The notes beneath the pieces are model-generated. The model was not told the DNA's origin, did not search any database, and worked only from the letters and a program-made list of their open reading frames with translations. Position numbers and translations under genes: made by a program. A stretch of 64,000 nucleotides of DNA from an uncultured Alphaproteobacteria bacterium (GTDB taxonomy: Bacteria; Pseudomonadota; Alphaproteobacteria; HIMB59): NCBI GenBank assembly GCA_902557145.1, contig CACDYZ010000003.1, positions 1 to 64,000 on the forward strand. The letters run 5' to 3'. Shown here one piece after another: positions 7,454 to 24,194 of this stretch (position 1 is its first letter; every line of letters begins with the position of its first letter).

Positions 7454-8098
7454 TTAATAATTTTTAAGAACGCTAAAATAGAATAATTTATGATTTTTGT
7501 CTAAGGCTTTTTTCTCGAATTTAGTGTGTAAAGCATTGGAATCACTGTATTCCCAAGATTTCGGGCTAATATTTGGCATGGTGTATTTAAATTTTTTCAT
7601 CAAAGCCAATGCTTCAATAAAATAATCACCATGGTCGGTTGCAAAACGAATAAAGCCTTTTTTTTTGAGTTTTTTAGTTAGGTCTTTAACAAGTGTTTGG
7701 TTCACGGTTCGCCTTTTTTTATGCCTATTTTTTGGCCAAGGATCTGGAAAATATATCCTTATTTCCTCAAAATAGTTATCTGGCATTAAAGGTAACAGCT
7801 CTTGGATGTTTAAATGGAATACTTGAAGGTTCTTTAATTTATGATCAACAGAGTTTCTAATGGCTCTCAGTACTCCATCAGCAAAAATATCACAACCTAT
7901 AAAGTTGACTTTAGAATTAGATTTTGCGTCTTCACTTATTTTTTCTCCATCCCCTATTCCAATTTCTAAAACCCTAGGAGTTTTAATTTTGTTAAATAAT
8001 GTTTTTTTTGGCTCGACAAGAAATTTTGTATATTGTTCAAGTCTTAAAAAAGACTTTCCTTTCTTTCTTCCAAAATATTTATTTTTTGATTCGAACAT
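7454..8098 (-). CDS. trmB: tRNA (guanine-N7-)-methyltransferase
   Basis: VLEIGIGDGEKI; IRIYFPDPWPKNRHKKRR signature. Confidence 0.95.
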   Translation of the reverse strand: MFESKNKYFGRKKGKSFLRLEQYTKFLVEPKKTLFNKIKTPRVLEIGIGDGEKISEDAKSNSKVNFIGCDIFADGVLRAIRNSVDHKLKNLQVFHLNIQELLPLMPDNYFEEIRIYFPDPWPKNRHKKRRTVNQTLVKDLTKKLKKKGFIRFATDHGDYFIEALALMKKFKYTMPNISPKSWEYSDSNALHTKFEKKALDKNHKLFYFSVLKNY

Positions 8099-9593
8099 AT
8101 AAAAAACTAAATAGGAAAATAAAGAAAAGTAAAACCATTACTGAGTTTAGTGTTGAGGAGCAGATAGATTGGTTTTTAGTAATTGAGTGTTGGTAATGCA
8201 GATAACCTTTTTTATTACTTGCAATAGTTTGAATAATTTTACCTGATCGATCCACTATAGAAGTAATCCCAGAGGGTGTTGATCTAATGAGAGGTTTTTG
8301 AAATTCAACACTTCGTAAAAGAGAGTTTGCTAAATGCTGATGAGGTCCATACCATTTACCAAACCAAGAATCATTTGAAATTTGTATAACCATATCTGAG
8401 CCACAAATCTCTTTATTAATAGATTGATAATTGAATATTGACTCAAAACAAATCATGGGGACAGCATTTATATCTTTGGGTAGATTAAGAGTTTTTTGGA
8501 CATGACCTGGTGTATAATTCATTCCTAAATTTAAAAACTTACTCACTAAGGGTTTTATAAAAGGTATGTATTCACCAAATAAAACTAATTTTTGTTTATC
8601 ATAAAAATCTATGATCTTTCCCTGATGATCAATAACATATAAACGATTAAATAATTGATCTTCTTCGATGGCACTTGAGCCAACTATTATTTTTTGATCT
8701 TCGTTAATCAAGGAGGATACTCTGCTCAGTAGTCCTATCCTATTATTTAAATCAATAGGTAAGGACCCCTCTGGCCAGATAATTAAATCTGTTTTTGCTG
8801 ATTTTGAAAGGGCCTCAATTGTTAATTGTTCATATTTTTCAAGATTTTTAAGGACATCAAATTCAACTAGTGACTCATAGAGGTTGGGTTGTATTAGAAG
8901 TATATTAAGTGTCTCATCTTCTGTTTTTTTAATATTATTGTTTTCAATAAAACCAAAAAAATAAAAGATAATACTTAGTGCTAATAAAACACTAGGTATG
9001 ATTTTATTTTTGTAATAAATAAAATAAATCATTAAACCGACAATCAAATGAACGACAAGACCTAAGCCATATACACCTAGATAAGGTAAGGATTTCAAAA
9101 TCCAAATATTTTTGTAGTAAATAATCGCTGAGGGATTCCAAGGAAAGCCCCCGAAGATAAATTCTTTTAATAACTCAACTATAGAGAGGCCTAGAGGAAG
9201 TAAAAAAATTAGTAATAATTTTTGTTTATAAAATGTTAAAATTAAAATAGTTGCTGAATAGTGTAAAAATGCAACAAACAAAGAGAGGATAGAGACTAAA
9301 ATTATTCCTAAAAATAAATATCCTGTTCCTCCTGAATAAAATGACTGGATAATCCAGCTAAGAGTAACTAATTGGGTTACTAAAAAAAAATAAAATATTT
9401 TTTTTTTAAAAAAAACATCGCTATTTAAAATGTTTAAAAAAAATATTACAAAAGACAGATAATAGAAAAAAGATATACCAAACGGGGGAAGTGAAAATAT
9501 ATATAAAACAGAACAAATAATTATTAGGTATGATGGCCTAGATATAGAGCTTAATAAGTTATTGAGATTTAACACCACTGACCACAACTTCAA
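8079..9593 (-). CDS. lnt: Apolipoprotein N-acyltransferase
   Basis: Multi-TM N-terminus and nitrilase domain (LIWPEGSLP; ICFESIF; NDSWFG; PLIRSTPSGITSIVD). Confidence 0.94.
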   Translation of the reverse strand: MKLWSVVLNLNNLLSSISRPSYLIIICSVLYIFSLPPFGISFFYYLSFVIFFLNILNSDVFFKKKIFYFFLVTQLVTLSWIIQSFYSGGTGYLFLGIILVSILSLFVAFLHYSATILILTFYKQKLLLIFLLPLGLSIVELLKEFIFGGFPWNPSAIIYYKNIWILKSLPYLGVYGLGLVVHLIVGLMIYFIYYKNKIIPSVLLALSIIFYFFGFIENNNIKKTEDETLNILLIQPNLYESLVEFDVLKNLEKYEQLTIEALSKSAKTDLIIWPEGSLPIDLNNRIGLLSRVSSLINEDQKIIVGSSAIEEDQLFNRLYVIDHQGKIIDFYDKQKLVLFGEYIPFIKPLVSKFLNLGMNYTPGHVQKTLNLPKDINAVPMICFESIFNYQSINKEICGSDMVIQISNDSWFGKWYGPHQHLANSLLRSVEFQKPLIRSTPSGITSIVDRSGKIIQTIASNKKGYLHYQHSITKNQSICSSTLNSVMVLLFFIFLFSFLYVRIKK

Positions 9594-10386
9594 GAATTTT
9601 TCTTGTTGATACCTTGTGAATGGTGAAAGATAATTTTTTATTAATTGTAAATTTTTCTTTTTTCTTGGGGATACGCCCTGCCATATTGAATATTATACCG
9701 CCTATTGTTCCAACATCCTCTTTTAAGTCCTCAGGGATATTTACATCGAATTCCCTCTCGAAATCATCCACTAGCATTGCAGCGTCCATAATAATGTTCT
9801 CGTTCTTTTGGCGGTACATTGGCGCTTCGTCCTTATCATGCTCATCTTCAATCTCACCAACTATTTCTTCCACTAGGTCTTCAATGGTTACTAAACCCGT
9901 CACACTATTAAATTCATCCATCACAATCGCTAAGTGAATGTTTTGTTTTTTCATTTTTTGTAGGAGGTTGAAAACTGGTGTCGCTGAGGGAATATAGATA
10001 ACTTCTCTCAGTAAACTCTTGATATTAAACGATTTATTATTAATTTTTTTAAATAAGTCTTTAATGTGAACCATTCCTAAGCAATGCTCTAAGTCATTTT
10101 TAACAACAGGCATCCTTGAGTGTGCTTCTTTGTTAATAATTTTAATGATGTTTTCTTTGTTAATGTTTTGATCGATAAAAATTATCTCACCCCTGGGCAC
10201 CATAACGTCATCAACTGTTTTTTTGTGTACCTTCAAAAGATTATTAAAAATCTTCTTCTCTTCACTTTTTGCAATCCCTGAGCTGTCCGATGTTGCAGAA
10301 ATAAGATCTATAATATCTTTTTTAAAGTTTTCATCTTGTATTAGTTCTTTGACTAATTTAATTGCTAAATTTTTTTTAATTTTCAT
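9559..10386 (-). CDS. corC: CBS-domain CorC/HlyC-family protein
   Basis: DVMVPRGEIIFID, tandem CBS domains, C-terminal CorC_HlyC domain; between ybeY and lnt. Confidence 0.9.
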   Translation of the reverse strand: MKIKKNLAIKLVKELIQDENFKKDIIDLISATSDSSGIAKSEEKKIFNNLLKVHKKTVDDVMVPRGEIIFIDQNINKENIIKIINKEAHSRMPVVKNDLEHCLGMVHIKDLFKKINNKSFNIKSLLREVIYIPSATPVFNLLQKMKKQNIHLAIVMDEFNSVTGLVTIEDLVEEIVGEIEDEHDKDEAPMYRQKNENIIMDAAMLVDDFEREFDVNIPEDLKEDVGTIGGIIFNMAGRIPKKKEKFTINKKLSFTIHKVSTRKILEVVVSGVKSQ

Positions 10387-10825
10387 GTACTTTTTTTAAA
10401 CCTAAAAATTTCATAAAAGTATTCTCTAAGAATCTCATATTGCTTCTTGATTGTTTATCATAGTGATCATAACCAAATAAATGATGTAATCCATGGCTCA
10501 CAAGCATAAAAAAATTTTGTTCATTAATTTTTTTATTTTTATTTAAAATATAACTGTCTGCAATAGCTATATCACCTGCAAAGTCTCCATCAGGAAAAGA
10601 TAGTACATCTGTTATTTTATTTTTTTTTCTAAAATTTTTATTCATGCTTTTAATTTCATCATTAGAAACTATTTTTATTGTAACTTGTGTTTTGTGATCT
10701 GCTTGATGAATCGTTTGAAAGTATTCTGATAATTTTTTAATTTTTTCTTTTGAGCTTTTAAGAAATTTTTCTAAATTATCGTCTCCGATTATCTCTATCA
10801 CAAATTTTTTGTTACTAATCCTCAA
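10376..10825 (-). CDS. ybeY: Endoribonuclease YbeY (16S rRNA maturation)
   Basis: LSHGLHHLFGYDH zinc motif (HxxxHxxGYDH). Confidence 0.95.
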   Translation of the reverse strand: MRISNKKFVIEIIGDDNLEKFLKSSKEKIKKLSEYFQTIHQADHKTQVTIKIVSNDEIKSMNKNFRKKNKITDVLSFPDGDFAGDIAIADSYILNKNKKINEQNFFMLVSHGLHHLFGYDHYDKQSRSNMRFLENTFMKFLGLKKVHEN

Positions 10826-10827
10826 AA

Positions 10828-11784
10828 TTACTTATCGTAAGCATTAATTATTTTTTCAACTAATGTATGTCGACAAACATCACTACTGTTTAAATGTACA
10901 AAGCCAATATCTTTTACTTTTTCTAATTTTTCCATCGCGTCCTGCATTCCACTTTTTGCATTATCGGGTAAATCCTTCTGACTTAAATCTCCTGTGATCA
11001 CCATTTTTGAATTTTGCCCTAATCTAGTTAGAAACATTTTCATCTGTGTGGATAATGTATTTTGTGCTTCATCTAAAATGATAAAGGATTTATTCAAGGT
11101 TCTTCCTCTCATAAAAGCGAGGGGAGCTATTTCTATTAAATTATTGACCATTTTTCGGTCAATTTCCTCGCCTGGCATCATTTCATATAAAGCGTCATAC
11201 AAAGGACGTAGATAAGGATCTATCTTCTCTTTCATATCTCCTGGTAAAAAACCAAGTCGCTCTCCCGCTTCAACGGCAGGTCTTGATAATATCAAGCGAT
11301 TAATTTTTCCTTCAACAAACAAACTTACTGCATAAGCAACAGCTAAATATGTTTTACCCGTACCAGCAGGACCAACTGCAAAAACAATATCTTTTGATCT
11401 CATCTCTTTTAAAAAGATTTCTTGGTTTTTAGTCTTTGGATAAATTGTCTTTAATTTTGTATTAATTTGAAATTTTTGATCTTGTTCGATTTGCTCTTTG
11501 ATATAGGTAGGTTTCGCTAGATCAATATTACTTTCAATTTCCTCTGCAGAAATATCATTATTTTTTAATTTTTTGTATAAACCTTCAATTATAAAATATG
11601 CTTTTTCAACTGGATCTCGATTTCCTTTAATAGATAAAAGATTACCTCTAGTATAAAGCTTTACTTTAAATTTGTTTTCTAAAACTTTTAAATTTTTATC
11701 GTGGTACCCAAATAAGCTTGAGAGAAATTGATTATCCTCAAACTCTAATTGTTTTTGATGAGAAGAAATATTTACTGGACTCAA
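10828..11784 (-). CDS. ybeZ: PhoH-like ATPase (YbeZ)
   Basis: FAVGPAGTGKTYLAVAYAV; RPAVEAGERLGFLPGDMKEKIDPYLRPLYDAL; FIILDEAQNT. Confidence 0.96.
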   Translation of the reverse strand: MSPVNISSHQKQLEFEDNQFLSSLFGYHDKNLKVLENKFKVKLYTRGNLLSIKGNRDPVEKAYFIIEGLYKKLKNNDISAEEIESNIDLAKPTYIKEQIEQDQKFQINTKLKTIYPKTKNQEIFLKEMRSKDIVFAVGPAGTGKTYLAVAYAVSLFVEGKINRLILSRPAVEAGERLGFLPGDMKEKIDPYLRPLYDALYEMMPGEEIDRKMVNNLIEIAPLAFMRGRTLNKSFIILDEAQNTLSTQMKMFLTRLGQNSKMVITGDLSQKDLPDNAKSGMQDAMEKLEKVKDIGFVHLNSSDVCRHTLVEKIINAYDK

Positions 11785-13113
11785 TTAAATTTTTTCTCCA
11801 AGTAAAGAGTGTGTTAAAACCTCTTTAATTTGTACAGGAATTATTTGACCGATAGTTTCTTTTTCACCTTGGAGCGCTACACTTTGATTAAATTGTGACT
11901 TCCCTTTAATTTGTCCTGTGCGATTACCGGCACCATCGATTAAAACTTGCACCGTTTTCTTTACAAACTGGTTGTTGTATTCAATTTGTTGTTCGTTTAA
12001 TAAATCTTGTGTGATCTTTAAACGCTCATTTAAGATCTCTTCATCTATTTCCTCACGATCAGCCGCGGGGGTACCTGGCCTCGGACTATACTTAAAAGAG
12101 TAGGAGTTCATATATTTAACTCTTTCAATTAGATCGATTGTGTCTTCAAAGTCTTTGTCAGTTTCTCCAGGAAAACCAATAATAAAGTCTGAAGAAAGCG
12201 CTATGTCAGGTTTGACTTTTCTTACTTTTTCGATGATTTCAAAGTAGTAATCTCTTGTATGCTTTCTGTTCATCAGCTTTAGGACTTTGTCAGATCCTGA
12301 TTGAACGGGCAAATGAAGAAAAGGCATCAGTTTAGAATTTTCACCATGTAGGGAAATTAAATCATCCGTCATATTGACTGGGTGACTTGTAGAATAGGTA
12401 ATTCTTTCAACTCCATTTATTAAACTAATACTGTTAATGAGCGAAGCTAGATTATTTGATTGCCCTTGATTATCTAAACCATGATAAGCATTCACATTTT
12501 GACCTAGCAGAGTGAATTCAACGACTCCCTGATCAATTAAGGATTTCACCTCATCTGAGATTTCCTTCACTGTTCTAGAATATTCTGAACCTCTGGTGTA
12601 GGGAACCACACAAAAATGGCAAAACTTATCGCAGCCCTCTTGTATTGTAACGAATGCAGATTTGCTAGAAGTATGAGTTTTTATATGGTTGAGCGTGTCA
12701 AACTTTTCATTTACATCAAATTCAGTGATAGAGGTTTTTGGTAAGTTATTTTTATCTAAAAATTTATTAAGGGACTGGATAGATTGTGGGCCAATGACCA
12801 AATCAACATAGGGTGCCCTTTTTTGAATTAACTCCCCCTCTGCTTGCGCTACACACCCTGCAACGATAACTTTTTGGTTATCTTTTCCTTTTTTATGTAT
12901 TCTTCCTAAATCTGAAAATGTTTTTTCCGTTGCCTTTTCACGAATGTGACAGGTATTTAAAACAACATAATCTGCTGTTTGAAAGTCATCCGTTTGATTA
13001 ATATTATGCGATAGAAAAATATCTTTCATTTTATCAGAGTCATAAACATTCATCTGACAACCAAATGTTCTAATATAAAATTTCTTATCTGATGGCATTG
13101 AGGGATTTGGCAA
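11785..13113 (-). CDS. miaB: tRNA-2-methylthio-N6-dimethylallyladenosine synthase
   Basis: FGCQMNVYDSDKM; radical-SAM CDKFCHFCVVPYTRG; C-terminal TRAM domain. Confidence 0.97.
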   Translation of the reverse strand: MPNPSMPSDKKFYIRTFGCQMNVYDSDKMKDIFLSHNINQTDDFQTADYVVLNTCHIREKATEKTFSDLGRIHKKGKDNQKVIVAGCVAQAEGELIQKRAPYVDLVIGPQSIQSLNKFLDKNNLPKTSITEFDVNEKFDTLNHIKTHTSSKSAFVTIQEGCDKFCHFCVVPYTRGSEYSRTVKEISDEVKSLIDQGVVEFTLLGQNVNAYHGLDNQGQSNNLASLINSISLINGVERITYSTSHPVNMTDDLISLHGENSKLMPFLHLPVQSGSDKVLKLMNRKHTRDYYFEIIEKVRKVKPDIALSSDFIIGFPGETDKDFEDTIDLIERVKYMNSYSFKYSPRPGTPAADREEIDEEILNERLKITQDLLNEQQIEYNNQFVKKTVQVLIDGAGNRTGQIKGKSQFNQSVALQGEKETIGQIIPVQIKEVLTHSLLGEKI

Positions 13114-13564
13114 ACAAAATTGCGTCTTGCGTATGCGGAGCGTTTATAGACTTACTCCGATAATAGTTTTTTCTTTCATTGTAGGCTTTATAGCCTAATT
13201 TTTCATAAAGTTTAATAGCAAAATTATTAATAGCACTCGCTTCCAGAAAGATTTTAAATGATTTTCCAGTACTTTTGAGTTGTTTTTCAAGCTCTTCTAA
13301 AATCATTCTTCCCAACCCTTGGTTTCTAAATTCAGGCAAAACAGCAATATGTAAAATTTCAAATTCACTGACCTTTTGATCTTGATATAAAAAATGTCCT
13401 ATCAAAGCACCTTTGACGTTAGTTTGATCTAGAAGATAAATATTAAAACTTGTTTCTTTATTGAGGTGAAGCTCAATATCTTTTTCACTCCAATTAATCT
13501 CTAGTTGGTCTTTATGATTGATAATCCAATTTTTAGAATCAGATAGAGTATGTGTAAAGTTCAA
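13085..13564 (-). CDS. rimI: GNAT ribosomal-protein-alanine acetyltransferase RimI-like
   Basis: GNAT acetyl-CoA motif EFRNQGLGRMILEELE; FLEASAINNFAIKLYEKLGYKAYNERKNYY. Confidence 0.88.
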   Translation of the reverse strand: MNFTHTLSDSKNWIINHKDQLEINWSEKDIELHLNKETSFNIYLLDQTNVKGALIGHFLYQDQKVSEFEILHIAVLPEFRNQGLGRMILEELEKQLKSTGKSFKIFLEASAINNFAIKLYEKLGYKAYNERKNYYRSKSINAPHTQDAILFAKSLNAIR

Positions 13565-14553
13565 GCCACAATATTATCATAAAAAACCTTGGAACACTCA
13601 TACCAGTTAAATTTTTTTGTATATTCTTGACATTTTTTTCGATCGATAGTCAAACAATTCAAAACATTATCTTTTAAGTTATCACCAATAAAACCGTTGA
13701 CCCCATTAACAATAATATCTTTAGGACCTGTTACATCATAAGCAGCGACTGGTGTGCCGGTTGCATTTGCCTCAGTTACCACATTTCCAAAGGTATCAGT
13801 CTTGCTAGGGAAAACCATTACATCTGAACTAGCATAGTAATTCACTAAATTCTGGCCAAACTGGTAACCAACAAATTTTATATCTGTATATTTTTTTTTT
13901 AGTTTATTTAACTGTGGTCCATCGCCAACGACAACTTTAGTACCTTCTAAATCTAAATCTAAAAAAGCTTGAATATTTTTTTCAGTAGCCACTCGACCGA
14001 TATAAGAAAATATTGGTCCTGGGCCTAAGTCTAATTTTTGATAGTTGCCAAATTTTTGATGATCGACACCTCTTGACCAAACAACGGTATTTTTAAAATT
14101 CATATTTATTAATTCAGCCTGCATGGATGGGGTAGGAACAAGAACTTTTTTCGCTTTATTGTGAAAATGCTTTATGAAGAAATAAAAGAAACTTGCAGGT
14201 ATTTTTATACGTTGTTGAATATACTCAGGGAAACGAGTATGAAATGAAGTTGTAAAAATAATTTTTTCTGAAAGACATATTTTTCTGGCCAAAAAACCTA
14301 GGGGCCCCTCTGTAGCAATGTGAATATGATCAGGATTGATCTGATCCATCATATTTTTCAATGTTTTTTTGCGAGTAATCACAACTTTAATCTCATTATA
14401 CGAAGGAAGGCCAAAGCGAACTTTAAATAACTCAGGGTGTATTACCTCTACCTGCATACCCATTTTTTCCAATTCCGGTATGGTATTCAGATAAGAACGG
14501 ACTACGCCGTTTACCTGAGGTTTCCATGCATCTGTTACTAATAATAATTTCAA
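13561..14553 (-). CDS. GT4-like glycosyltransferase, candidate glycolipid (diacylglycerol) glycosyltransferase Agt
   Basis: VTDAWKPQVNGVVRSYLNTIPELEKMG; C-terminal FPSKTDTFGNVVTEANATGTPVAAYDVTGPKDII; 4-bp overlap with the PlcP-like gene upstream. Confidence 0.8.
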   Translation of the reverse strand: MKLLLVTDAWKPQVNGVVRSYLNTIPELEKMGMQVEVIHPELFKVRFGLPSYNEIKVVITRKKTLKNMMDQINPDHIHIATEGPLGFLARKICLSEKIIFTTSFHTRFPEYIQQRIKIPASFFYFFIKHFHNKAKKVLVPTPSMQAELINMNFKNTVVWSRGVDHQKFGNYQKLDLGPGPIFSYIGRVATEKNIQAFLDLDLEGTKVVVGDGPQLNKLKKKYTDIKFVGYQFGQNLVNYYASSDVMVFPSKTDTFGNVVTEANATGTPVAAYDVTGPKDIIVNGVNGFIGDNLKDNVLNCLTIDRKKCQEYTKKFNWYECSKVFYDNIVA

Positions 14554-15338
14554 GCTGCAGATACCTTATTAAGAGTTTGTTTTTCTAAAGACTGGATTTT
14601 TTTTTCATTCCAAAAGACTAACTCCAAGTTGCCTTTAAAGTCCTCAACCATTGCACTACAGCTATCTACCCAATCTCCTAGATTATGATATGTCTTATCA
14701 CCAATTTTTTTTATTTGGGGATGGTGAATATGACCACAAACAATTCCATCACAATTATTTTTTTTTATTCTCTCAAGACATGCATTTTCAAAATTTTCAA
14801 TATATCGTTGAGCATCTTTTACTCGTGTTTTTAAATATCCTGATAAAGACCAATACGAAAGACCAAGTTTTCTTCGACAGAAATTTAAAATATTATTAAA
14901 CCAAACAGAGTAGTCATAAAGGACGGCACCTATCTTTGCTAACCATTTTGAATTTAGAACTATTCCATCAAATTCATGCCCATGCATTAAGAGAAGTCTT
15001 TTATTGTTCGCTGTTGTATGAATTCTATTTTTTCGAACTTTAATGTTTGCAAATGAAAAACCACAATAATCTGAAAAAACTTCATCATGGTTTCCAGGTA
15101 TATAATAGACTTTGGTACCTGCGCGTGCTTTTCGTAAAACTTTTTGTATGAAAGTATTAAAATCAGGATTCCAAAACCAATTTTTTTTTAGACGCCATCC
15201 GTCTATAATATCTCCAAGTAAATAAAGATGATCACAATCATTATATTTTAAAAAGTGTAAGAGCTCCTTTACTTTTGAAGCACGTATGCCAATATGAATG
15301 TCTGAAATGAATATGGATCGATGTTTTTTGATTTGCAT
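14550..15338 (-). CDS. Calcineurin-like metallophosphoesterase, PlcP-type phospholipase C candidate (UDP-2,3-diacylglucosamine hydrolase-like superfamily)
   Basis: SDIHIGIRASKVKELLHFLK; LLGDIIDGWRLKKNWFW; GNHDE; LLMHGHEFD; CGHIHHP; LGDWVDSCSA. Confidence 0.8.
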   Translation of the reverse strand: MQIKKHRSIFISDIHIGIRASKVKELLHFLKYNDCDHLYLLGDIIDGWRLKKNWFWNPDFNTFIQKVLRKARAGTKVYYIPGNHDEVFSDYCGFSFANIKVRKNRIHTTANNKRLLLMHGHEFDGIVLNSKWLAKIGAVLYDYSVWFNNILNFCRRKLGLSYWSLSGYLKTRVKDAQRYIENFENACLERIKKNNCDGIVCGHIHHPQIKKIGDKTYHNLGDWVDSCSAMVEDFKGNLELVFWNEKKIQSLEKQTLNKVSAA

Positions 15339-15382
15339 AGAATCTAAAAATAGATATATCTACGATTGATAGTATTGAGGAT

Positions 15383-15398
15383 TGTTAAAGTTTTATTA
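15383..15398 (-). promoter_or_regulatory. Pho-box-like element upstream of plcP-agt and abutting the SET gene start
   Basis: Plus strand TGTTAAAGTTTTATTA; 15/16 identical to the pstS-upstream element at 22916-22931; half-sites 11 bp apart. Confidence 0.65.
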
Positions 15399-15399
15399 A

Positions 15400-15918
15400 A
15401 TGGGCTCTTCACAAAAGCTTTATATTAGAAAAAATTCTAAAATTCATGCATCTGGTCTTTTTGCAAAAGCTGATATCTGTGCTGGCACTAGAATCATTGA
15501 ATATCGCGGGTTAAAGATAAATAAAGCTCAATCAGACAAGATTGCTGATGTTCACATAGAGGCAAACAAAAGGGCTAAAACAGTCGGGTCTGTTTACATT
15601 TTTACACTGAATCAAAAATACGACATCAATGGAAAAGTAACATGGAATTTAGCAAAATATATTAATCATTCCTGCAACCCTAATTGTGAAACTGATATCA
15701 TCAAAGGAAAAATATGGATTAGCGCAATTAAAGATATTAAGAAAGGCGAGGAGCTGTCCTACGACTATGGATATGACATGTTTTGTTTCGAGGATCACCC
15801 GTGTCGATGTGGGTCTCAAAACTGTATTGGATATATTGTTCGAAGCAATCTTAGATGGAGAGTTAAAAAAAGGTTAATTGAAAATAAAAAGTCAAGATTT
15901 AACAAAAACTTCACATAA
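15400..15918 (+). CDS. SET-domain protein (candidate protein-lysine methyltransferase) with post-SET cysteine cluster
   Basis: SGLFAKADICAGTRIIEYRG; KYINHSCNPNCETDI; GEELSYDYGYD; CRCGSQNCIGYI. Confidence 0.9.
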   Translation: MGSSQKLYIRKNSKIHASGLFAKADICAGTRIIEYRGLKINKAQSDKIADVHIEANKRAKTVGSVYIFTLNQKYDINGKVTWNLAKYINHSCNPNCETDIIKGKIWISAIKDIKKGEELSYDYGYDMFCFEDHPCRCGSQNCIGYIVRSNLRWRVKKRLIENKKSRFNKNFT

Positions 15919-15935: not shown

Positions 15936-16283
15936 ATGGATTTTAAAAATAAAAATATAGTAGATGCTTTTTGGTGTTCAATTGAAGGCCTAAAAATTCT
16001 CCTTCAAGAAAAAGCAGCAAGAAGAGAGCTATTATTGTTTCCCTTGTCTGCTCTATACATCGTAATTTTTCAACCGGCTCTTTTGTTCATACTTTGGCTG
16101 ATAATTTTACCTTTACTCATACTTAGTATTGAGGCTCTAAACACTGCAATAGAATATACCTGTGATAAAATTACTATGGATAAGTCAAACAAAATAAAGA
16201 AAGCTAAAGATTTGGGCTCTGCTGCAATTTTTTTATCTCTAACAGCCTATGGAATAGTTTTAATCTTAGGTTTATTTAATTAA
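15936..16283 (+). CDS. dgkA: Diacylglycerol kinase, small integral membrane type
   Basis: EKAARRELLLFPLSALY; LSIEALNTAIEYTCDKIT; KDLGSAAIFLSL. Confidence 0.92.
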   Translation: MDFKNKNIVDAFWCSIEGLKILLQEKAARRELLLFPLSALYIVIFQPALLFILWLIILPLLILSIEALNTAIEYTCDKITMDKSNKIKKAKDLGSAAIFLSLTAYGIVLILGLFN

Positions 16284-16871: not shown

Positions 16872-17561
16872 TTAATTTTCTGAATCGATAGAGTAGCCAG
16901 CGGATCTAACTGTTCGAATGAAATCTTTTTCTCCTGTTAAATTCAGCTCTTTTCTGAGTCTTCTTATGTGAACATCAACTGTTCTAGGTTCAACGTAAGC
17001 GTCATTTAACCAAACATTATCCAATAGTTGCTGCCTAGAATAAACTCTACCTTTATTTTCAATAAAAAATTTTAAAAGATTAAATTCAGTCGGTCCTAAA
17101 TTTAATTTTCTCTCACCCCTTGTTACCCTTCTGTTGGTGAGATTAATGTTTATATCATGAAACTTGAGTGAGTCGTTCTCTTCTCTTGCTTTTGTTCTTT
17201 TAAGTAATGATTTAATTCTAGCAAGGATCTCACTTGGAAGAAAAGGTTTGGTTACATAATCCTCCACACCTAATTCAAAACCTCTAATTTTATCATCCTC
17301 TTGACCTTTAGCTGTTAACATTATAATTGGAATATTTTTTAAATTATCTTTTCTTTTAATTCTCTTTAAAACTTCAATGCCCGATATATTTGGCAGCATC
17401 CAATCTAATAAAATTAAGTCAGGCAGCCAATGTTCGATCTCTTGAATAGCAGACTCTCCATCATATGAAAATTTTATTTGGTAGTTTTGTTTTTCTAAAT
17501 GAAATCCAATTAATTCAGAGATTGGTTTTTCATCTTCAACAATTAAAATTTTATCTGTCAT
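16872..17561 (-). CDS. phoB: Phosphate regulon response regulator PhoB
   Basis: OmpR-family receiver (ILIVEDEKPISELI) plus winged helix; next to phoU-pst. Confidence 0.95.
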   Translation of the reverse strand: MTDKILIVEDEKPISELIGFHLEKQNYQIKFSYDGESAIQEIEHWLPDLILLDWMLPNISGIEVLKRIKRKDNLKNIPIIMLTAKGQEDDKIRGFELGVEDYVTKPFLPSEILARIKSLLKRTKAREENDSLKFHDININLTNRRVTRGERKLNLGPTEFNLLKFFIENKGRVYSRQQLLDNVWLNDAYVEPRTVDVHIRRLRKELNLTGEKDFIRTVRSAGYSIDSEN

Positions 17562-21763: not shown

Positions 21764-22843
21764 TTACTTACAGAGTTTACCTGAGAAAGCGTAGCCGGCA
21801 TCTTTCAAAGGATGTTTCTTGTCGGCACAGGCAACTACATCAAATGCAGCTAATGTATCTACATCTGATCTCGTTCTTGATAATAATTCAGAAACCATGG
21901 GAGCAGCGCCAATTTTTGTAAGGTAACCGTTAGAGCCAATTGCTTCATCGGAAACCATCATTTGCGCAAATTCTTGAATACCTGGAACAACTCCAATGTG
22001 ATCTTTCTTTAAGTAAATAAATAAGGGTCTCGCAACTGGATACTCATAAGCAGCAATTGATTCTTCACTAGGATCGACTCCCTCTAAAGATGCAGGTTGT
22101 AATTTATCACCATTATCTTTTAAATAAGAATATCCAAAGTAGCCAAAACGCTCTTTGTCCTCTACGAGTTTTTGGACGATAAGGGTATCATTCTCACCCA
22201 TCTCAATAATCCTTCCGTCTTCTCTGTAATCTGTACATCCATCATCTCCACCTGTGATATCTTCATATCCCATCGCAGCACAGCCTTTTTCCATTACATT
22301 ACCGTCAAAAGCGTCCCTTGTACCAGATGTTGGAGGGGCTACCAGTACTTCTATTTTATATGCTGGTAAGCTTGAATTAATTTCATTCCATTTTGTGTAA
22401 GGATTTTCTACGACCTCACCATCTACAACTACTTTAGCCGCCATAGCAGTCCAAATCTCAGCTCTTGTTAGATCCATTTTTTCAGCGGCGTTTGAGTGAG
22501 AAAACGTAATACCATCATTAGCCCACATTACCTCCACAACATTGGTTACACCATTTTCGACACAAAGTTTCGCTTCCTTAGATTTCATAGGTCTTGAGGC
22601 ACCAGTAATGTCTGGGTGTTCTACGCCTACACCAGCACAGAATAATTTCATTCCTCCACCAGTCCCTGTTGGGTTATAAGTTGGGGTTTTAAAACCTGAC
22701 TCTCCAAGTCTTTGTGCGTTCACAGTTCCATATGGGTATACAGTTGAAGAACCAACAATATTGATTTGATCTCTTGCAAAAGTTTCAGCAGAGAAAAGAA
22801 CGCTTACTGCTAAAGCAAGAAAGGTTAAAATTGATTTTTTCAT
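21764..22843 (-). CDS. pstS: Phosphate ABC transporter substrate-binding protein
   Basis: Signal peptide; INIVGSSTVYPYG; PTSGTRDAFDG; first gene of pstSCAB. Confidence 0.95.
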   Translation of the reverse strand: MKKSILTFLALAVSVLFSAETFARDQINIVGSSTVYPYGTVNAQRLGESGFKTPTYNPTGTGGGMKLFCAGVGVEHPDITGASRPMKSKEAKLCVENGVTNVVEVMWANDGITFSHSNAAEKMDLTRAEIWTAMAAKVVVDGEVVENPYTKWNEINSSLPAYKIEVLVAPPTSGTRDAFDGNVMEKGCAAMGYEDITGGDDGCTDYREDGRIIEMGENDTLIVQKLVEDKERFGYFGYSYLKDNGDKLQPASLEGVDPSEESIAAYEYPVARPLFIYLKKDHIGVVPGIQEFAQMMVSDEAIGSNGYLTKIGAAPMVSELLSRTRSDVDTLAAFDVVACADKKHPLKDAGYAFSGKLCK

Positions 22844-22904: not shown

Positions 22905-22931
22905 TGTTACATATATGTTAAAGTTTTGTTA
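22905..22931 (-). promoter_or_regulatory. Pho-box array upstream of pstS: three TAACA half-sites at exact 11-bp spacing
   Basis: Plus strand TGTTA at 22905, 22916 and 22927; the last overlaps the phoR stop codon. Confidence 0.75.
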
Positions 22932-24194
22932 CGTGTGCTTTGGAATTGTTATCAAAAATTCTGAACCTTTTCCAACTTCACTTTTTATGTCAATAAAACC
23001 CATGTTTTTAGTCAAAATATGTTTCACAATTGAAAGACCTAATCCAGTACCACCAACCTCTTTAGATCGTGCACTGTCTACTCTATAAAATCTCTCAGTA
23101 AGCCTTGAGATGTGCTCTTCTGCAATGCCTATGCCACTATCTTTGAAAGAAATTTCGACAAATTCAGTCAAAGTGCTACTATTCATTTTTTCTCGGGCAT
23201 TAATTATAATTTTAGTACCATCTTTTGAGTATTTAACAGCGTTGTTAACGATATTGACAACCACTTGAATAAATTCTTCATGAGGGCATCCAACTAAAAG
23301 AGATTGGTCTAAATTAATATCAACATTTATTTTTTTCTTTAAAATTTTTGACTCCAATGAGTTTATTCCAATTTTTACAGTATTTAATAGATTGCAAAAT
23401 TGGTCATTCTCGTTAGTTTTTTTATTCTCGATAGAACTTAAACTTAATAGATCATCGATCAAAGAGTTCATTCGATTCGACTGATCTTGAATGATTGAAA
23501 TAAATTTTTTTCTATTTTTTTCATCATCAACAGTTAAAAGTGTTTCTAAATATCCTATTATTGAAGAGAGAGGAGTTTTTAATTCGTGGCTTACATTAGC
23601 TACGAAGTCAGTTCTTACCATCTCAAGATTTTTAATTGCAGTAATGTCTTTAAAAGCAATACAAAAAAAATCATTAATAGGAAATCCTGTAACGTCATAG
23701 TATCGGTCATTTGGTATTAATCTGTTCCACTCAAAATTTTTTTTTGATTTAGTTTTAAGTGCGTTACTTAGATTTTCAGACAAAGATAAGTCTCTTAAAC
23801 CTATTTTAAGGTTATCTGCATTTTCTAAATTAAATGTCTCTTTGAAAATATTATTAACGAATATGATATTATAATCATAATCTATAATAACTATTGAGAG
23901 GTCTAAGGAGTTAAGAATGTCTTGATACTCCAAACTTTGTTTGTCACCAACTTCGATGCGTCTTTCTTTGTCTAAAAGAGTCTCTTCTAAAATATTTCGG
24001 ACTTTTGTAAATAACATATTGTCAGATTTTCTTAGGTTAAAAGTTTTTTTTTCAAGATAGCTCTCAAAGAAATAATAAGAAATGAAATAAACTAAACTCT
24101 GAGAAATAATTGATATTAAAAAAATATTAATTGAAGTACTAAAAAACAAAAATAAGTTTAATGAGAGAACAGCAATAGAAAATACAAATAACAT
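22929..24194 (-). CDS. phoR: Phosphate regulon sensor histidine kinase PhoR
   Basis: PAS region; FVANVSHELKTPLSSIIGYLETL; DSGIGIAEEHISRLTERFYRVDSARSKEVGGTGLGLSIVKHI. Confidence 0.93.
   Translation of the reverse strand: MLFVFSIAVLSLNLFLFFSTSINIFLISIISQSLVYFISYYFFESYLEKKTFNLRKSDNMLFTKVRNILEETLLDKERRIEVGDKQSLEYQDILNSLDLSIVIIDYDYNIIFVNNIFKETFNLENADNLKIGLRDLSLSENLSNALKTKSKKNFEWNRLIPNDRYYDVTGFPINDFFCIAFKDITAIKNLEMVRTDFVANVSHELKTPLSSIIGYLETLLTVDDEKNRKKFISIIQDQSNRMNSLIDDLLSLSSIENKKTNENDQFCNLLNTVKIGINSLESKILKKKINVDINLDQSLLVGCPHEEFIQVVVNIVNNAVKYSKDGTKIIINAREKMNSSTLTEFVEISFKDSGIGIAEEHISRLTERFYRVDSARSKEVGGTGLGLSIVKHILTKNMGFIDIKSEVGKGSEFLITIPKHT

Follow-up and report, generated by a model that had tools for sequence, protein, structure and literature searches.

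The window analyzed here is a stretch of 64,000 nucleotides (nt) from an alphaproteobacterium of the HIMB59 clade (contig CACDYZ010000003.1), and our subject is a short element lying between the gene pair plcP-agt and a divergent gene for a SET-domain protein. Could this element be a Pho box, through which the regulator PhoB would control lipid remodelling? The gap that holds it measures only 61 bp (46 in the HIMB59-type). The genes and sites on which the argument turns are as follows, in coordinates of the window.

13561 to 14553, minus strand: agt, GT4 glycosyltransferase, overlapping plcP by 4 nt
14550 to 15338, minus strand: plcP, calcineurin-like phosphoesterase of the PlcP-type phospholipase C kind (Pfam PF00149)
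15369 to 15374, minus strand: putative -10 hexamer TACTAT, assigned by eye, 8 nt past the second half-site
15383 to 15399, minus strand: proposed Pho box of plcP-agt, TTAATA (15399-15394), AAACT, TTAACA (15388-15383), with an 11-bp period
15400 to 15918, plus strand: SET-domain protein, divergent from plcP, with an in-frame TAA directly before its ATG
21764 to 22843, minus strand: pstS, first gene of pstSCAB-phoU-phoB-arsC-like
22905 to 22932, minus strand: pstS Pho box with three half-sites, GTAACA (22932-22927), TTAACA (22921-22916) and GTAACA (22910-22905)

Positions 15383 to 15398 read TGTTAAAGTTTTATTA on the plus strand. The sequence-only reading had described this 16-mer as a near-copy of the pstS Pho box, and the site proved real, with the refinement that it had been given on the plus strand; on the coding strand it reads TTAATAAAACTTTAACA, which is, by its letters, an AT-rich equivalent of CTGTCAT-N4-CTGTCAT. 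Its identity to the pstS 16-mer at 22916-22931 is 15 of 16 as claimed, and the 11-bp half-site spacing and the equal orientation relative to plcP and pstS are both correct. Each site lies upstream of its gene, at a distance from the ATG of 44 nt for plcP and 72 nt for pstS, and the plcP box directly adjoins the SET ATG (15400). At pstS the coding strand reads GTAACA-AAACT-TTAACA-TATAT-GTAACA; the third half-site, at the same 11-bp period, is missing at plcP, and the phoR stop codon (22931-22929) falls inside the first pstS half-site. In sister species the plcP and pstS cores are identical at 17/17 bases. The pstS boxes of relatives (GTCATAAAACTTTAACA in G013, G015 and G061; TGTCATAAATCTTTCAT in G030) show, as sequences, the link to the classical form of the Pho box.

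How often would such a site be expected? The window's assembly comprises 1,187,131 bp in 29 contigs (84% complete, 32% GC). Counting the 16-mer with at most one mismatch across the whole assembly returned exactly two sites, those at pstS and plcP, which is the short list that the sequence-only reading had predicted. A Markov model fitted to the window gave an expectation of 0.40 such sites genome-wide and of ∼8e-6 in the 61-bp plcP-SET gap. What speaks for a chance match is the AT-rich genome and the result at two mismatches, where the whole assembly showed no enrichment and the word was no commoner than the reversed control (6 matches versus 12); therefore only the tight match is informative. 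Degenerate Pho patterns with two mismatches also gave counts resembling those of the reversed control in seven genomes, and therefore we claim no wider regulon list.

Comparison across the genus carried the argument further. A matrix built from the pstS boxes of other genomes only, with no plcP site in it, gave its top score in the 64-kb window, 23.8 bits, to the plcP site; pstS scored 19.7 bits and the next site 14.5, and the maximum in 30 simulated windows was 18.1. When 52 congeneric genomes were searched for the exact degenerate word, we found 85 matches versus 2 for the reversed control. Nearly all of these (81/85) lay at plcP (30), at pstS (31) or at an orphan gene divergent from glnD (20, six of them assigned because they lie a constant 7,901 bp from the pstS box). 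One of the remainder is upstream of a 403-amino-acid gene in the island of G061, and three are inside open reading frames (ORFs); the latter, two in G012 ORFs and one in G026 sixA, were taken as chance and come to about the number predicted by the control. The motif is thus specific to phosphate promoters, namely three that lie in the phosphate island or at its edge. All 30 congeneric genomes having plcP have the plcP box, and two subclades share 96.5% identity in the box, against 33% in the adjoining leader (ungapped) and 56% (SET) and 67% (plcP) at third codon positions. With 30/30 genomes conserving the site, a chance origin is refuted by conservation, and we regard it as extremely improbable.

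Does the element serve plcP or SET? It abuts the SET ATG in every genome that has plcP, and does so too at four SAR11 loci with an arsC-like divergent gene, as would be expected if it belonged to the leader or start region of SET and resembled the pstS box only incidentally. However, in 12 genomes with SET but without a plcP match, the box was absent at SET in 12/12. In these genomes SET has rimI, the gene that follows agt in the window, as its immediate neighbor; one of them, G062, holds a possible decayed copy of the box at SET. To judge from these sequences, the plcP-less genomes are the clearest indication that plcP, and not SET, is what the box serves. Ownership by SET is also hard to reconcile with the full identity to the pstS box in sister species, with the Pho period and with a -10-like hexamer whose distance, on the plcP side, is nearly constant. 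By eye, this hexamer is TATAAT in G030 and G026 and TATACT in G009, with a spacing of 8-9 nt in both subclades. A consensus promoter scan reported nothing in the plcP-SET gap and did not list the putative -10 hexamer, an outcome to be expected if the promoter has no -35 element. Ownership by SET is largely refuted, and we give it very little credence.

These data make it very probable that the plcP-agt site is a functional Pho box and that lipid remodelling is under PhoB control. The sequence-only reading had tied PlcP and Agt to PhoB, and the 16-mer count, the excess of word matches over the control and the coupling of box and plcP support that link. Its further statement that the tie follows from sequence alone stands only for comparative sequence; the 16-mer pair of one genome would have been suggestive. 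Several observations weigh on the other side. The genus is sampled narrowly in phylogenetic terms, and near-identical genomes make up many of the 30, so that the independent units amount to about three subclades plus a second family. The plcP-less genomes may go back to a single loss; several of them are incomplete, and where plcP is absent its contig may simply be absent too, although rimI stands next to SET in the 12 genomes. In the second family, the plcP copy adjacent to SET lacks a clear box. At 26 other alphaproteobacterial plcP loci, boxes were indistinguishable from background in a simple half-site scan.

The other family of the order does have a box upstream of a second plcP-agt pair, followed 9 nt on by a -10-like hexamer (TATTAT in 6/7 genomes, TATTTT in G059). 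The divergent arrangement of SET and plcP recurs in both families (13561-15918 in the window; L120 and L121), and in the second family SET overlaps phoR ahead of pstSCAB, so that the link between a SET-domain protein and the phosphate cluster is a repeated one.

In the proposed mechanism, phosphate limitation would lead phosphorylated PhoB to bind the two direct half-sites, which would stand in for a -35 element. Bound PhoB would recruit RNA polymerase to the -10-like hexamer that follows after 8-9 nt, turning on plcP-agt leftward. PlcP would then strip the phosphate headgroup from phospholipids to leave diacylglycerol, and Agt would add a sugar to the diacylglycerol, so that glycolipids would replace membrane phosphorus. 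We infer the direction of regulation, the enzyme activities and the lipid change from sequence, as we do PhoB binding and induction; the same evidence would place PlcP-Agt in the PhoB regulon. The presumed regulator and its sensor are encoded nearby, as is a diacylglycerol kinase downstream of SET.

15936 to 16283, plus strand: dgkA, diacylglycerol kinase
16872 to 17561, minus strand: phoB, presumed regulator, above the TIGR02154 cut-off
22929 to 24194, minus strand: phoR-type sensor kinase

Half-sites here read T(A/C)A(C/T)A, unlike the TGTCA of Escherichia coli. The -10 spacing, about 10 nt in E. coli Pho promoters, is 8-9 nt here. What the window shares with the E. coli Pho box and the PhoB-DNA complex (PDB 1gxp) is the arrangement of two direct half-sites at an 11-bp period and the recognition-helix stretch of PhoB, RTVDVHIRRLRK, which is identical to that of E. 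coli PhoB in the 1gxp sequence.

Might a single PhoB-bound box both activate plcP-agt and block rightward transcription of SET-dgkA? The consequence would be that the kinase would not rephosphorylate the diacylglycerol freed by PlcP. The box lies at the start of SET, and because the gap to plcP is so short, any SET transcript must begin in or upstream of the box. Moreover, the box-to-SET gap is always 0 while the box-to-plcP gap varies (44 nt, or 28-29 nt), and the geometry is the same in SAR11. However, compact genomes force such overlaps, and the orphan-gene box abuts glnD alike. In addition, dgkA may own a weak Pho-like site, which would argue for activation instead. On balance we consider this double function unlikely, though less so than ownership by SET. 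The weak site in question is tentative.

15899 to 15915, plus strand: second Pho-like element TTAACAAAAACTTCACA, a weak one at the 3' end of SET, with the dgkA ATG 20 nt downstream

It was outside the top 15 sites of the pstS-trained matrix in the window. A similar site, TTAACAAAATTTTCATA, occurs past the SET stop codon in G030, G026 and G061, and around the SET stop codon in G009, where the next gene differs.

In the SAR11 contigs L192, L193, L194 and L195, the SET start codon is directly preceded by a Pho-like box (TTAACAAATCTGTAACA); the arsC-like gene is divergent from SET, and either pst/phoB or ppk/ppx genes lie close by. SET homologues distant from phosphate genes (L196-L198) are without a Pho-like box.

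The name PlcP rests on the linkage to agt and on the literature, and the predicted activity is hydrolysis of phospholipid headgroups. Homologues of plcP at E ≤ 1e-40 were found in 98 of 289 genomes sampled across the class, and an agt homologue adjoins plcP in 24 of the 26 other alphaproteobacterial loci examined. An identity as LpxH is not supported, since plcP scored far below the equivalog cut-offs (42.9 bits versus 190.35 for TIGR01854; 53.3 versus 134 for PRK05340). LpxI is the usual alphaproteobacterial enzyme for the LpxH step. Nor would an LpxH be needed for want of LpxI, which is present in 9 of 13 genomes of the genus, including G030 (99% complete); LpxI was not found in the window's own 84%-complete assembly. 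Beyond plcP-agt, the stretch at 8079-15338 continues with rimI-, miaB-, phoH-like, ybeY-, corC- and lnt-like genes that overlap or are separated by near-zero gaps. With gene names assigned by eye, the Pho promoter might read into these housekeeping genes.

The orphan gene lies outside the window. It encodes ∼284 amino acids and has an exact Pho box upstream in G020 (L110:16709-17613) and in 19 further genomes of the genus; this box also abuts the glnD start. The protein had no Pfam or NCBIfam match; inspection by eye suggests a resemblance of its C-terminal part to ATP-grasp enzymes. It adjoins a choice-of-anchor I protein, probably the published 'alkaline phosphatase' of the island. Its box makes the orphan gene a probable new member of the Pho regulon.

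This type of control is already known: in the sections of Sebastian et al. (PMC4796936) drawn on here, putative Pho boxes are reported in marine plcP gene clusters, activities of PlcP and Agt are published for marine bacteria, agt of HTCC7211 (SAR11) was tested in E. coli, and HTCC7211 PlcP was used to complement a plcP mutant. The systems in those sections share with ours plcP beside agt, a putative PhoB site upstream and lipid remodelling under phosphate starvation. The organisms named there are Pelagibacter, roseobacter and other isolates, not the HIMB59 clade, and, unlike in those sections, the box was tested here by conservation and by the presence or absence of plcP. A flexible phosphate genomic island of the HIMB59 order has been described by Molina-Pardines et al. 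(PMC10734472), and the island and the window have in common SET, diacylglycerol kinase, pst-phoB/phoR, ppk, sixA, ppx, plcP and agt. In that description plcP appears as LpxH and is connected with lipid A, plcP and agt are explained through lipid A and lipopolysaccharide biosynthesis, and a glycosyltransferase and diacylglycerol kinase are given no direct phosphorus-related function. A search of the paper's text turned up no reference to a Pho box, glycolipid or remodelling.

Our reading would correct that of two genes in the published phosphate island, from lipid A and lipopolysaccharide biosynthesis to PlcP-Agt, and the sharp motif already points to another probable gene of the Pho regulon. 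If the box also held back SET-dgkA, a bacterial lysine-methyltransferase-like protein and diacylglycerol recycling would be tied to phosphate status. Taken as very probable, control of plcP-agt by the phosphate regulator would assign lipid remodelling, a main phosphorus-saving strategy of the ocean, to the HIMB59/AEGEAN-169 clade.
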